This document shows positions 46,284-63,977 of a stretch of DNA of 64,000 bases, in pieces (within the stretch, counting starts at the first letter, position 1; the number at the start of each line of letters is the position of its first letter). This DNA is from Cupriavidus pauculus (GTDB lineage: Bacteria > Pseudomonadota > Gammaproteobacteria > Burkholderiales > Burkholderiaceae). The notes below the pieces were generated by a model that saw only the letters and a list, made by a program, of their open reading frames with translations, made no database searches and was not told the origin of the DNA. Both the position numbers and the translations under genes were made by a program. The DNA lies in the NCBI RefSeq assembly GCF_008801835.1, contig NZ_VZOW01000027.1, forward strand, positions 1-64,000, read 5' to 3'.

Positions 46284-49196
46284 TCATGCCGCCTTGAACT
46301 TCAGGAGGCGCAGCCCATTGACGACAACCAAAAGACTTGCCCCCATGTCAGCGAACACAGCCATCCACATGGTGGCATGCCCTGTGAACGTCAACGCAAG
46401 GAACACCGCCTTGATGCCAAGGGCCAGAACGATGTTCTGCGTGAGGATCGCCGCAGTGCTACGCGACAGCCGGATGAAGGCGGGGATCTTGCGCAGGTCG
46501 TCGTCCATCAGGGCGACGTCGGCTGTTTCGATCGCGGTGTCGGTGCCGGCCGCGCCCATGGCGAAGCCGATGTCGGCACGGGCGAGCGCGGGCGAATCGT
46601 TGATGCCGTCGCCCACCATGCCCACCTGGCCCTCGCCGCCGACCAGGCTTTCGATGGTCTTGAGCTTGTCTTCGGGCAGTTGGTCACCACGGGCTTCAGA
46701 GATTCCGACCTGGGCAGCGATGGCCGCGGCCGTGTGCTGGTTGTCCCCCGTCAGCATCAGCGTGCGCACACCCAGCGCCTGCAGGTCGGCCACCGCCTCA
46801 CGGCTGGTTTCCTTCACGGTGTCGGCCACTGCAAAAATGCCGAGCACGGTCGCATCGTCCATCAGCAGGATCGCTGTCTTGCCTTGGCGCTCCAGGGTCT
46901 CCAGCCGAGCCTGGAGCGTCGCTTCGCTCAGGCCCAGCTCCTGGGCGAGCCTGTGGTTGCCCATGTGCAACATGCGCCCGGCGACGCGGCCGCGCACGCC
47001 GCGGCCAGGCAGCGCCGCGAAGTCGTCGACCTCGTGCAGCGCGATGCCGTCACGGTTCGCCTTGCGGGCGATGGCCTGAGACACAGGATGGTCCGAGCGT
47101 GCCGCGAGGCTTGCGGCCCAGGCGGCAACTTCCTGCGCCTCGCCGATCAGCGGCACGAAGTCGGTCTGCTCGGGCTTGCCATGTGTGAGTGTGCCGGTCT
47201 TGTCCAGGGCCAACGCCTTGAGCTTGCGCCCGCCCTCCAGGTAGACGCCACCCTTGATCAGGATGCCGCGTCGGGCGGCAGCGGCCAAGCCGCTGACGAT
47301 GGTGACCGGCGTGGAGATGACCAGAGCGCAGGGGCAGGCGATCACCAGCAGTACCAGGGCCTTGTAGACCCAGTCAAACCATGCGCCGCCGAAGGCGAGC
47401 GGCGGCACGACGGCAACCAGCACGGACACCGCGAACACCGCCGGCGTGTAGACGCGGGCGAACTGGTCGACGAAGCGCTGCGTGGGCGCACGGCTGCCCT
47501 GCGCGGACTCCACGGCATGGATGATGCGCGCGAGCGTCGAGTCGCTGGCGCCTGCGGTCACCTTGTATTCGAAAGAGCCGGTCTCATTGATGGTTCCGGC
47601 GAAGACCTGGTCACCTTCGGCCTTCTCGACGGGCAGGCTCTCGCCGGTGATGGGCGCCTGGTTGATGGCCGATCGACCCGAGGTGATCAGGCCGTCCAGT
47701 GCGATGCGCTCGCCAGGACGCACGCGGACCACCGCGCCCTTTGCGACCTCCTTGGCCGGCAGCTCTGTCCATGAGCCATCGGCCTGCCGCACGGTCGCGG
47801 TCTCGGGCGCCAAGTCCATCAGCCCCCGAATGGCGTTGCGGGCGCGGTCCAGCGACTTCGCCTCGATCACTTCCGCCAACGCGAACAGGAACATGACCAT
47901 GGCGGCCTCCGGCCAGTGGCCGATCGCCATGCCGCCGGTGACCGCGATGGCCATCAGGGCGTTCATGTTCAGGTTGAGGTTCTTCAGCGCGATCCAGCCC
48001 TTCTTGTAGGTGCTGAGGCCGCCGGTGAAGATCGAAACCAGTGCCAGCACGATCACGGCCCAATGATTGCCGTCGTTGACCCAGTACACGCCTTCGGCGG
48101 CCACCGCCGCAACGCCCGAAACCGCCATCGGCCACCAATTGGTCTTGTGCGCGGCCACCGGGGCATCGCGCGGCTCATCAGTCCTCTGGACCTCGGCTTC
48201 CATGCCCAGCGATTCGATGGCTTCGACTGCCGGCTTGATCGCGTCGGGTGTGTGCCGAACCGTGAGCGTGCGCTGCATCAGGTTGAAATCCATTCCCTGC
48301 ACGCCCGGCATGCCTTGCAGCTTGCCGCGGATCAGACTTTCCTCGGTCGGACAGTCCATCTTCGCGATGCGAAGTACCGTGGTGGCTGTCTGCATGTCCT
48401 GCCGCGCAGCCTGCATTCCAATGGAAGCAAGCGCCTTCTCGATCGGCGCTGAGGTCGCCAGCGTGTGCTGGACTCCCAGCACACGCTGCATCAGATTGAA
48501 GTCGAGCGCGGTCACACCCGGCAGCTTGCCCAGCCGGTCGCGGATCAGCGCTTCTTCCGTCGGGCAATCCATGTTCTCGATCCGGTACGTCACCCGCTCG
48601 CCGATCGGCGGCGCGGAAACGGCAGCGGTTGGTTGCTGCTGCAGGGCCGAGGATGGGATCACAGCCGCGGCTTCGATCGGCCCCGTGTGGCCGAAGGTCT
48701 GCTCCTTGGCGCGCATGCCGATCGAGGCCAGGACCTGCTCCATCTGCGCGCGTGCCTGAGCGAGGTGTTTCACCGACAGGGTGCGCTCAGCGAGGTCGAA
48801 GTCGAGGTCCTGAATTCCCTCGACTGCCCCGAGGTGCGAGCGGATGAGTTTCTCCTCGCTCGGGCAGTCCATGTTCTCGATGCGGTAGGTGGTCGACACG
48901 GCGGCGTCTCGGACAGCCTGAGCCTTCATGCCCACCGAATTCAGCGCTTGCTCCAAGGCATCGGCCGAGACTTCGCGGTGCGAAATGGTCAACAAACGCT
49001 GCGGAAGATCGAACAGGAGCCGCTCGACACCGGGCATGCCCTCCAGCGTTCGCCGCACCAGTGCTTCCTCATTGCGGCAATCCATGTTGCTCACGTGGAA
49101 AACGGTGGTTTCAGTGCTGGCCTGCTCACTGGCGCACGCCGTCTGTTGGCCATTGCCGCCGGAGCAGGCGCATGGGCTGGAAGGTTCTTTGTTCAT
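46284..49196 (-). CDS. pbrA: heavy-metal P1B-type ATPase with four N-terminal metal-domain repeats
   Basis: 970 residues from the ATG at 49196; earlier in-frame starts lie upstream of the predicted transcription start. All P-type motifs are intact: CPC in IACPCALVIS, DKTGTLT, SDHPVSQAI and GDGINDSPALA. Four ferredoxin-like HMA repeats precede the membrane part, each with MDCxxEE (Cys 40, 111, 211, 282) instead of CxxC. A Cys-containing leader (SSPCACSGG) opens the protein. It exports Pb(II)/Cd(II)/Zn(II) from the cytoplasm. The MerR promoter and lspA favour lead. Four repeats is unusual; most relatives carry one or two. Confidence 0.88.
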   Translation of the reverse strand: MNKEPSSPCACSGGNGQQTACASEQASTETTVFHVSNMDCRNEEALVRRTLEGMPGVERLLFDLPQRLLTISHREVSADALEQALNSVGMKAQAVRDAAVSTTYRIENMDCPSEEKLIRSHLGAVEGIQDLDFDLAERTLSVKHLAQARAQMEQVLASIGMRAKEQTFGHTGPIEAAAVIPSSALQQQPTAAVSAPPIGERVTYRIENMDCPTEEALIRDRLGKLPGVTALDFNLMQRVLGVQHTLATSAPIEKALASIGMQAARQDMQTATTVLRIAKMDCPTEESLIRGKLQGMPGVQGMDFNLMQRTLTVRHTPDAIKPAVEAIESLGMEAEVQRTDEPRDAPVAAHKTNWWPMAVSGVAAVAAEGVYWVNDGNHWAVIVLALVSIFTGGLSTYKKGWIALKNLNLNMNALMAIAVTGGMAIGHWPEAAMVMFLFALAEVIEAKSLDRARNAIRGLMDLAPETATVRQADGSWTELPAKEVAKGAVVRVRPGERIALDGLITSGRSAINQAPITGESLPVEKAEGDQVFAGTINETGSFEYKVTAGASDSTLARIIHAVESAQGSRAPTQRFVDQFARVYTPAVFAVSVLVAVVPPLAFGGAWFDWVYKALVLLVIACPCALVISTPVTIVSGLAAAARRGILIKGGVYLEGGRKLKALALDKTGTLTHGKPEQTDFVPLIGEAQEVAAWAASLAARSDHPVSQAIARKANRDGIALHEVDDFAALPGRGVRGRVAGRMLHMGNHRLAQELGLSEATLQARLETLERQGKTAILLMDDATVLGIFAVADTVKETSREAVADLQALGVRTLMLTGDNQHTAAAIAAQVGISEARGDQLPEDKLKTIESLVGGEGQVGMVGDGINDSPALARADIGFAMGAAGTDTAIETADVALMDDDLRKIPAFIRLSRSTAAILTQNIVLALGIKAVFLALTFTGHATMWMAVFADMGASLLVVVNGLRLLKFKAA

Positions 49197-49236
49197 AGAT
49201 CGCTCTTCATTGACAAGGTTTTCCCCGGATGCCATC

Positions 49237-49267
49237 ATTAGAAAACCTCTAGTAGATATAGAGTCAA
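49237..49267 (-). promoter_or_regulatory. MerR-type promoter of the metal ATPase operon
   Basis: TTGACT (49267-49262) and TCTAAT (49242-49237) are 19 bases apart, the overlong spacer used by MerR-family activators. A dyad CTCTA/TAGAG lies within the spacer. The divergent pbrR starts 21 bases to the right. Confidence 0.9.
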
Positions 49268-49287
49268 GTTTTTTATAGGAAGCAACC

Positions 49288-49686
49288 ATGATGCGGATCG
49301 GTGAACTGGGCAAGAAGGCAGATTGCTTGGTGCAGACCGTGCGCTTTTACGAGTCAGAAGGCTTGCTGCCCGAGCCTGCACGTAGCGAGGGCAACTTCAG
49401 GCTCTATGACGAAGTCCATTTGCAGCGCTTGCTGTTCATCCGCCGCTGCCGGGCGAAGGACATGACGCTGGATGAGATCCGTCAACTGCTGAACTTACGG
49501 GATCGGCCAGAGTTGGGCTGCGGCGAGGTGAACGCGCTGGTCGACGCTCATATCGCGCAAGTGCGGACCAAGATGAAGGAATTGCGCGCCTTGGAGCGCG
49601 AGTTAATGGATCTGCGACGCTCCTGCGATAGCGCCCGAACCTCGCGCGAGTGCGGCATTCTCAACAGCTTGGCCGAGCCCGCCTGA
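49288..49686 (+). CDS. pbrR: MerR-family Pb(II)/Cd(II) sensor
   Basis: 132 residues. The winged helix-turn-helix is at the start (RIGELGKKADCLVQTVRFYE), followed by the dimer helix. Metal-site Cys fall at 78, 113 and 122, the spacing known for PbrR/CadR proteins. It twists the 19-base spacer promoter to activate the ATPase operon when metal binds. The second MerR-type promoter pair near 50.6-50.7 kb is a probable additional target. Ribosome site AGGAAG. Confidence 0.9.
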   Translation: MMRIGELGKKADCLVQTVRFYESEGLLPEPARSEGNFRLYDEVHLQRLLFIRRCRAKDMTLDEIRQLLNLRDRPELGCGEVNALVDAHIAQVRTKMKELRALERELMDLRRSCDSARTSRECGILNSLAEPA

Positions 49687-62881: not shown

Positions 62882-63382
62882 ATGGCTGAACATTCCCATG
62901 AACATCAACATCACACATCCGGTCAGATGGGTAAGCACGGCCGACCATACGCCAAGTTCTGGGTGAACATGGTGTTGGGCCTCGTCGTCATGTACTTCGT
63001 AATGTTCAGCATGATCGACGGCGCCAGGGACTTCAGAAACAATCTCAACATGCTCTACATGGCGGTCACTATGTGGGCGCCAATGGGCATCTTCATGCTA
63101 GCGACAATGCCCGGCATGTTTCCAAACCGGCGGCTCAATCTCGTGCTGTACGGCTTGTTTGCCGTTCTCACACTCGGTTCTTTTGCCGCTACCCGTGCTC
63201 AAACCGGAATCGGCGATCGACAGTTCATCGCGTCTATGGTCCCGCACCATTCGGGAGCGATCCTCATGTGCCGCGAGGCGCAGCTCTCAGATCCGGAACT
63301 CGTCAACCTATGCCAAGCGATTTCCGATGGCCAGCGCGCGGAGATCGAGCAGATGAACCGGATTGCTGCACGCCTTCGTTGA
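62882..63382 (+). CDS. DUF305-domain membrane protein
   Basis: 166 residues after AGGAGACGGAG. His-rich start (EHSHEHQHHTSGQMGKHGR), three membrane helices (about 26-48, 54-76 and 82-100), then a DUF305 domain with DRQFIASMVPHHSGAILMCR, whose paired His are the usual metal-site candidates. Such proteins often accompany copper or other metal-resistance genes. It is isolated here, near the ICE right end. Metal binding is inferred only. Confidence 0.85.
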   Translation: MAEHSHEHQHHTSGQMGKHGRPYAKFWVNMVLGLVVMYFVMFSMIDGARDFRNNLNMLYMAVTMWAPMGIFMLATMPGMFPNRRLNLVLYGLFAVLTLGSFAATRAQTGIGDRQFIASMVPHHSGAILMCREAQLSDPELVNLCQAISDGQRAEIEQMNRIAARLR

Positions 63383-63672
63383 GGCTGGCTGCCACTACAC
63401 TGGCGCCGCGTTGCGCTCCGGCGAAGTTAGCCGCAGCGATGTAAAGATGAGTACTTGCGGTGTTCCGATGCCGGCGGTTGTGTCCTACAGCCGTCCAGGT
63501 GCCAGGTAGTCCACGCGACACCACCCCGCGCTGCCTGCGGAGCGAGCGCAAGTCATGATCGTCGCAAGTTGGAGTTCGATAGCGAACCCGCTCAGCAGCT
63601 GGACGCATCAGGCGTAACGACGGGTGGATGGATCATCCTTGGACGCTGGTGGAAGTGGTTGGATGAACTTTG
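63383..63672. other. non-coding ICE right end
   Basis: About 290 bases with no credible gene; it leads into the outward-facing promoter. Confidence 0.5.
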
Positions 63673-63701
63673 TTGCCGAGGGCGAAAAACAAGGCTATAA
63701 T
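63673..63701 (+). promoter_or_regulatory. outward-facing promoter at ICE right end (Pcirc candidate)
   Basis: TTGCCG (63673-63678) and TATAAT (63696-63701) are 17 bases apart. It points at attR, 69 bases away, and drives no ICE gene in the integrated form. In ICEclc a promoter at this position transcribes the integrase only in the circular form. Confidence 0.65.
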
Positions 63702-63769
63702 TGAGTTCTTCGCTGATCACCACAGTGGAGAAAGTGATTGGGAAACAGAGACTTAGCGCTCTAGTGCAT

Positions 63770-63787
63770 GACTCGTTTCCCGCTCCA
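63770..63787 (+). repeat. attR: 3' end of tRNA-Gly
   Basis: GACTCGTTTCCCGCTCCA equals the last bases of bacterial tRNA-Gly(GCC) including CCA; from recall it differs at one base from the 18-base ICEclc att core. The upstream sequence cannot fold as a tRNA, so this is the displaced end copy and the ICE ends here. Confidence 0.8.
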
Positions 63788-63792
63788 ATCCC

Positions 63793-63817
63793 AAAGGGAA
63801 GCGACGCTTCCCTTTTT
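63793..63817 (+). terminator. tRNA-Gly terminator in chromosomal flank
   Basis: AAAGGGAAGC-gac-GCTTCCCTTT followed by TT, directly after the CCA. It belonged to the original tRNA-Gly transcript. Confidence 0.85.
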
Positions 63818-63903
63818 CATTCTCGGGATTGTGTTTGCATTGCACGCAGGTATCGACATCGCGATACCTGACGAATGCGGATACAATCCGGGATCAGTCA
63901 CCT

Positions 63904-63977
63904 GGCGGGGTGGCAGAGTGGTTATGCAGCGGCCTGCAAAGCCGTGTACGCCGGTTCGATTCCGACCTCCGCCTCCA
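63904..63977 (+). tRNA. tRNA-Cys(GCA)
   Basis: 74 bases folding as a tRNA: acceptor GGCGGGG with CTCCGCC, discriminator T and encoded CCA, T-loop GGTTCGATTCC, anticodon GCA at 63936-63938 in the loop CTGCAAA. It is intact chromosomal DNA to the right of the ICE and neighbours the tRNA-Gly target as in many proteobacteria. Confidence 0.95.

Follow-up and report, generated by a model that had tools for sequence, protein, structure and literature searches.

An outward-facing promoter at the right end of an ICEclc-like element in Cupriavidus pauculus probably gives rise to the small RNA sX8

The site at the right end of the Cupriavidus pauculus element is, very probably, an outward promoter of the Pcirc type belonging to an ICEclc-like ICE in a tRNA-Gly gene, one that yields sX8 as long as the element is integrated. 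The window analyzed comprises 64,000 nucleotides (assembly GCF_008801835.1, contig NZ_VZOW01000027.1, positions 1 to 64,000), and coordinates given alone refer to it. The promoter, the Rfam match, the att core, the terminator sequences at both ends, the position and direction of the integrase gene, the conservation of the right end and the tandem junctions are read directly from the DNA. We infer promoter activity in this strain, termination of transcription at both hairpins with an RNA end near 63817, and read-through to the integrase after circularization. The identity of sX8 with the outward transcript is new and, as a sequence-based assignment, well supported; the exchange of terminators, which puts one ahead of the integrase gene, and a possible service of the promoter to displaced tRNAs are also new and are offered as testable inferences. 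The literature searched on sX8, RF02227, ICE right ends and outward promoters yielded no published link between sX8 and ICEs; the small-RNA passages of one paper found on ICEs, attR and tRNA-Gly deal with the PrrF locus. A small-RNA family under a neutral name gains a concrete identity.

The promoter consists of TTGCCG (63673-63678, +) and TATAAT (63696-63701, +) with a 17-nt spacer, matching the consensus at 10 of 12 positions. Both hexamers, their spacing and their outward direction are exactly as described in the initial annotation, and conservation backs the site. The promoter adjoins the att core as annotated, although 68 nt rather than 69 separate the −10 box from it. The consensus alone is at chance level, with one promoter-like site in a 4-kb scan versus 1.2 ± 1.2 in shuffles. 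That the match at 63673-63701 is a coincidence would agree with this count, yet it is highly improbable, being contradicted by the conservation of the right end, the pattern among haplotypes and the sX8 match. Fourteen of 15 distinct upstream haplotypes, anchored on sX8 with no promoter demanded, carry TTG(N)3, exactly 17 nt and TANA(A/G)T; the single misfit (L027) keeps TATAAT and lacks TTG at that distance. All haplotypes of a larger set fit the pattern (22/22), a count that is partly circular because the −10 word was used in selection. Compared with nine ICEs hand-chosen for divergence, the right end is approximately 0.80 identical from −60 to +60 of the sX8 start; identity falls to 0.54-0.60 farther upstream and to 0.49, in host DNA, past +100. 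The same comparison outlines a conserved right-end block from about −60 to +80 (63648-63787, +). Despite the chance-level consensus, we regard the promoter as real because it is conserved and adjoined by a full-length sX8 match.

This match (63708-63789, +) covers positions 1-82 of the 82-position Rfam sX8 covariance model (RF02227) and scores 97.1 bits in cmscan, versus a gathering score of 50. It is the sole RF02227 match found in the genome. It begins 7 nt past the −10 box, where it would form the start of the outward transcript, and runs to 2 nt past the att core; the true 3′ end of the RNA probably lies at the terminator near 63817. The initial annotation had viewed the site as an integrase switch that awaits circularization. 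This part calls for revision: the promoter is probably not waiting for circularization, because a catalogued sRNA is matched just downstream of it and because the relevant passages on ICEclc report Pcirc as constitutive (PMC9286271, PMC6561031). By analogy, the outward promoter may be permanently active and produce sX8 whenever the ICE is integrated.

The attR core, GACTCGTTTCCCGCTCCA (63770-63787, +), agrees at 17 of 18 positions with the 3′ end of each of the two tRNA-Gly(GCC) genes that contig C23 carries. This 18-bp stretch of the tRNA-Gly 3′ end is directly repeated, attL and attR sharing 17 of 18 positions. The two ICE ends sit on separate contigs in this genome. At the left end, on C23, the second tRNA-Gly gene is followed by the core and then, in the same direction, by a tyrosine integrase gene that starts 224 nt past the attL core, so that the placement proposed in the initial annotation, just beyond attL and codirectional, is borne out. 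The 614-residue protein contains PF13356, PF22022 and PF00589 and is of the long P4 type. ICE-free relatives have tRNA-Gly, tRNA-Gly, terminator and tRNA-Cys consecutively at this site in all nine loci shown (L153-L161); because this gene order unites contigs C23 and C27, we treat them as the two flanks of one insertion. Conjugation genes in the window include TIGR03755, TIGR03746, TIGR03765 and a MobH + TIGR03760 relaxase, along with TraC_F_IV, TraG-D_C, a topoisomerase and a ParA-type ATPase. Given the PFL/PFGI-1-class conjugation genes, the long P4-type integrase and the tRNA-Gly direct repeat, the element is, on sequence grounds, an ICEclc/PFGI-1-class ICE integrated in tRNA-Gly.

For the comparison across genomes, a pattern on sX8 nucleotides 28-49, which lie outside the core, gave 62 matches in a genome collection (84,980 species) and nine in viral contigs; three of the 71 (L053, L092, L094) lack both the promoter and the core and were treated as chance. 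A similarity search with the whole right end, core included in the query, gave matches in 8 of the 398 genomes from the family to which the window belongs (its own included) and in 13 of 395 from the family of genome G768 (G768 included). The final count of 82 distinct loci leaves out the window itself (L017), L018 (G639, with a core), L024 (a remnant in G529 with the core deleted), the divergent L140 with its core-like end, and the duplicates L066, L082, L097, L129 and L130. One of these duplicates, L082 from Cupriavidus gilardii, is identical over 182 nt to L019 (G483). In 76 of the 82 loci, sX8 passes directly into the tRNA-Gly core (60/65 found by the pattern outside the core; 16/17 found by the query that includes it). 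The six loci scored without a core are L027, where a variant core retains the ending CCCGCTCCA ahead of tRNA-Cys, and L022, L028, L049, L055 and L065, which have no intact core. The ICE part of sX8 in L022, L028, L055 and L065 extends to the core, different host DNA lies beyond, and these loci look like secondary integration sites; in L049, tRNA-Cys is found 34 nt farther on.

The Rfam sX8 consensus itself terminates in the tRNA-Gly core plus 2 nt. Together with the continuity of sX8 and core in the loci above, this places the ICE-host border at the end of the Rfam model, and with 76 of 82 loci continuous sX8 seems to represent the Pcirc transcript made by elements of the ICEclc type rather than an ordinary chromosomal sRNA. 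It further suggests that RF02227 annotations in effect flag ICE right ends, and the family would be a ready attR marker for this type of ICE. A covariance-model search of 369 genomes of the class recovered the window's own copy only, among the best 12 candidates per genome. Searches in 'distant' mode at E 1e-5 gave no match in E. coli genomes and phages and one in plasmids (Tistrella pTM3). Neither the ICEclc record (AJ617740) nor a named ICEclc carrier is among the matches in the collections searched. The excluded remnant L024 (G529:C1:4879884-4879962) is of separate interest: the promoter and the first ~30 nt of sX8 are fused to the tRNA-Gly terminator in a genome with no close ICE integrase match. 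A short host RNA may therefore remain there.

Integrase genes were paired with sX8 in a sample of 32 handles (8 similarity genomes, 23 of the 62 pattern loci and the Tistrella record); G607 and G778 have identical coordinates and are apparently one genome, so that the sample probably holds 31. An integrase match of at least 50% identity is present in 28 of the 32 genomes or records and missing in G529, G768, G787 and W01. Seventeen integrase-sX8 pairs, assigned by hand, lie on one contig and span elements of ~77-176 kb, and in all 17 the integrase is upstream and on the same strand. An extra G617 integrase (2963806) and a G780 integrase (95395, 53%), which is downstream of its sX8, were left unpaired, and a possible 18th pair (G777:C10, 34770 to 123112) has an sX8 of only 72% identity. 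Five natural tandem junctions (G617, G777 twice, G783 and G784) are equivalents of the circular junction. In these, the sX8 of one ICE continues through a core towards the integrase of the next, whose gene starts 226-243 nt farther on in the same direction. The Pcirc-like arrangement that had been annotated, an outward promoter near attR facing the integrase once the ends join, therefore agrees with the sequence.

The tandem arrays are joined core to core (G617:C1, 1747546-1971645; G777:C10, 34427-123455), with integrases 57-67% identical to the window's. In an otherwise matching ICE (G639:C3, 2612654-2617984) the integrase lies in two pieces ~3.5 kb apart, which suggests that an insertion has split the gene.

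Both ends of the ICE are associated with terminators. Past the right end, a predicted intrinsic terminator (63793-63819, +; stem 63793-63815), formerly that of the host tRNA-Gly, is now placed to end sX8, and it stands immediately 3′ of tRNA-Gly in 9/9 loci shown from relatives. As the initial annotation held, it lies ahead of tRNA-Cys in the integrated form, and no ICE gene is seen downstream of the promoter. Across the family, 58 of 81 sX8 loci have a terminator no more than 110 nt past the core, versus 32 of 760 control segments; part of the 58 are left ends of a second tandem element rather than host terminators.

At the left end, a terminator is found in the 240 nt upstream of the integrase in 28 of 29 loci (21 distinct sequences) versus 12 of 290 control segments, a count made without requiring a stem in a set that includes a 37% integrase of another kind (L127); the one exception, L126, represents the inner half of an integrase in two pieces. 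In 26 of the 29 integrase loci the left end fits a fuller pattern, in which the core and an inverted repeat precede a stem (such as GGAGCTTCGGCTCC or GGGGCTTCGGCCCC) with T behind it; this is no test of the terminator because the pattern itself requires the stem. A paired change from GGAGC/GCTCC to GGGGC/GCCCC argues that the stem is maintained as a hairpin. In predicted folds of three tandem junctions (L081, L040 and L025) this hairpin forms behind sX8, and a candidate antiterminator pairing between the core and the left-end terminator was dropped for that reason. A boxA-like antitermination signal noticed by eye in sX8 was also dropped, as the stretch is variable. With a conserved terminator between core and integrase, joining of the ends would not suffice, and read-through or antitermination would be required; the left-end terminator counts against the outward promoter as an efficient driver of the integrase.

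These features are consistent with a scheme in which integration swaps terminators between host and ICE. The tRNA-Gly at attL would be ended by the ICE-carried terminator between attL and the integrase, and the outward transcript of the ICE by the terminator that formerly served tRNA-Gly. Excision would join the ends and make sX8 the 5′ leader of a transcript aimed at the integrase gene, which that transcript could reach only by passing the left-end terminator. The Pcirc interpretation of the initial annotation is thus retained for the position of the promoter and the direction of the integrase, but probably not for a promoter that waits for circularization, nor for joining of the ends as sufficient in itself. 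The scheme turns the passage of transcription across the conserved left-end terminator into a testable question. A broader proposal, which we put forward only tentatively, is that sX8 is a cis-acting leader of the att site, that integration exchanges terminators, that integrase levels are set by antitermination together with promoter joining, and that the promoter takes over essential tRNAs at polycistronic sites.

The RNA itself could instead be a trans-acting regulatory sRNA that rides at the ICE end by accident. Rfam catalogues sX8 as an sRNA, and the window RNA has a good predicted fold (z −3.1 over 80 nt, z −4.2 with the host terminator), but folding is uneven, with z −1.4, −2.1 and −3.4 for three other haplotypes. 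Predicted stem-loop 1 (63708-63730, +), which is ICE-encoded, is retained across 23 haplotypes, with 92% of cells paired and no pair changed on both sides. The 3′ strand of predicted stem-loop 2 (63736-63785, +) is the tRNA-derived att core, and its two pairs changed on both sides are in the apical stem only. The covariation score is matched by 1 of 500 shuffles and the number of both-side-changed cells by 4 of 500, though kinship alone can beat shuffles without any structure. Similarly, 84.2% of cells are paired, above every shuffle and every slid version, in a test that favors a structure derived from one sequence. RNAalifold, in contrast, finds both-side changes in 0 of 11 pairs; for the given structure they occur in 2 of 25 pairs, a number reached by 443 of 500 shuffles. 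As the 3′ part of sX8 also varies with the integration site (L022, L028, L049, L055 and L065) and the family is bound to att sites, a role in trans is unlikely.

Another possibility is that the conserved block is the DNA of an attP arm, holding integrase and host-factor sites, with promoter and RNA secondary. The block is sharply edged at the ICE end, and TTGGA-type words are repeated upstream, as judged by eye. In stem-loop 1, the 5′ strand CTTCGCT is invariant and its partner strand drifts, which would also suit a DNA-binding site. However, 14 of 15 haplotypes keep both hexamers and their spacing, and the passages concerning ICEclc describe RNA-seq and reporter signals from Pcirc (PMC9286271, PMC6561031). 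We consider an arm of this kind doubtful as the main explanation and favor a Pcirc-type promoter with sX8 as its product.

What the promoter does for the host is a further consideration. Chromosomal tRNA-Cys(GCA) lies outside the ICE at 63904-63977 (+) and is preceded by TACAAT (63882-63887, +), a probable −10 box seen by eye in 9/9 loci shown from relatives; inspection by eye gave no clear −35 box. This gene apparently has no need of the outward promoter, because a terminator intervenes and TACAAT precedes it. Elsewhere, the main task of the promoter in the integrated state might be to transcribe host tRNAs severed from the promoter of their tRNA-Gly operon and so spare the host, an idea to which we give somewhat less than an even chance. 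Of the 82 loci, 38 have a same-strand tRNA that starts no more than 300 nt from the core. The scan detects no intervening terminator for 16 of them, and eight of these (L020, L030, L036, L049, L058, L067, L070 and L093) have a gap of at most 58 nt with no promoter-like site and, by eye, no terminator. On the other hand, three more of the 16 (L037, L085 and L095) show a long-loop terminator by eye, and a terminator intervenes in 22 of the 38 loci as well as in the window; rescue of tRNAs therefore cannot explain the promoter in general.

One individual case is G769 (P. abietaniphila, L036). Its operon promoter, TTGACG..TAGAAT, was left behind at attL (L104), ~108 kb away, tRNA-Cys lies 45 nt past the attR core, and a second tRNA-Cys match was not found in the genome; no source of tRNA-Cys other than the outward promoter is visible there. 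Two relatives (L144 and L146) have tRNA-Gly and tRNA-Cys ~46 nt apart behind one promoter-like site, but in others (L143, L145 and L147) no tRNA-Gly was found ahead of tRNA-Cys. If the outward promoter keeps severed tRNAs alive, this would explain how an ICE could land in an operon with apparently the only tRNA-Cys gene. The SXT element, on integrating in prfC, gives a promoter to the displaced host gene. That case differs in concerning the 5′ end of a protein gene, whereas here downstream tRNAs are concerned and only at some sites. At L020 (G617:C1:1971518), the ICE right end is followed after a 33-nt gap by tRNA-Thr(GGT), with no terminator. The site recalls what we take to be the Tyr-Gly-Thr-tufB operon, and EF-Tu might there come under the outward promoter as well.

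The closest known system is ICEclc of Pseudomonas knackmussii B13, which shares the outward promoter at the ICE end, the 18-bp tRNA-Gly 3′ end as target and the long P4-type integrase (PMC2892462, PMC9286271, PMC6561031); the likeness to Pcirc is judged by position. It differs in that the passages on ICEclc in these sources name neither an sRNA nor a terminator between core and integrase. There, Pcirc is termed an outward facing constitutive promoter, with an RNA-seq signal taken as independent of 3-chlorobenzoate stationary-phase conditions (PMC9286271), and it drives a reporter beyond attB once integrated, which has been used as an integration trap (PMC6561031). Pcirc is also listed, at position 102,729, for a 2.5-kb intB13 transcript (PMC2892462), which would fit read-through if ICEclc shares the left end described here. 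A separate promoter, Pint, serves the integrase in ICEclc as well (PMC9286271, PMC12388829). The clc-like islands GI1-GI3 of Bordetella petrii likewise use tRNA-Gly with an 18-bp repeat, have an inverted repeat beyond it near tRNA-Cys, and occur as tandem islands with circular forms detected by PCR; the relevant part of that report assigns the inverted repeat no role and says nothing of an outward transcript (PMC2717098).

RF02227 resembles the window RNA in the full-length match above the gathering score and in a consensus ending with the tRNA-Gly core plus 2 nt. It is labelled 'Proteobacterial sRNA', with no ICE-end link in the name, whereas the last ~20 nt of the window sX8 are att core and host DNA rather than part of a free-standing gene. 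The Rfam family reportedly stems from Schmidtke 2012, a paper cited in PMC3771888; a passage of the latter credits dRNA-seq with 24 sRNAs in Xcv 85-10.

Some further features of the element deserve mention. The last sizeable + strand ORF with a family match before sX8 is a DUF305 ORF (62882-63382, +), and a P-type metal ATPase with four HMA stretches is encoded at 46284-49313 (−). The last ~125 residues of the integrase (L011, 7870-9714, −) match a separate ORF of ~220 aa at 44-48% identity; this ORF, resembling the C-terminal part of the integrase, occurs in many of the genomes that carry such ICEs and lies tens of kb away from the integrase gene.
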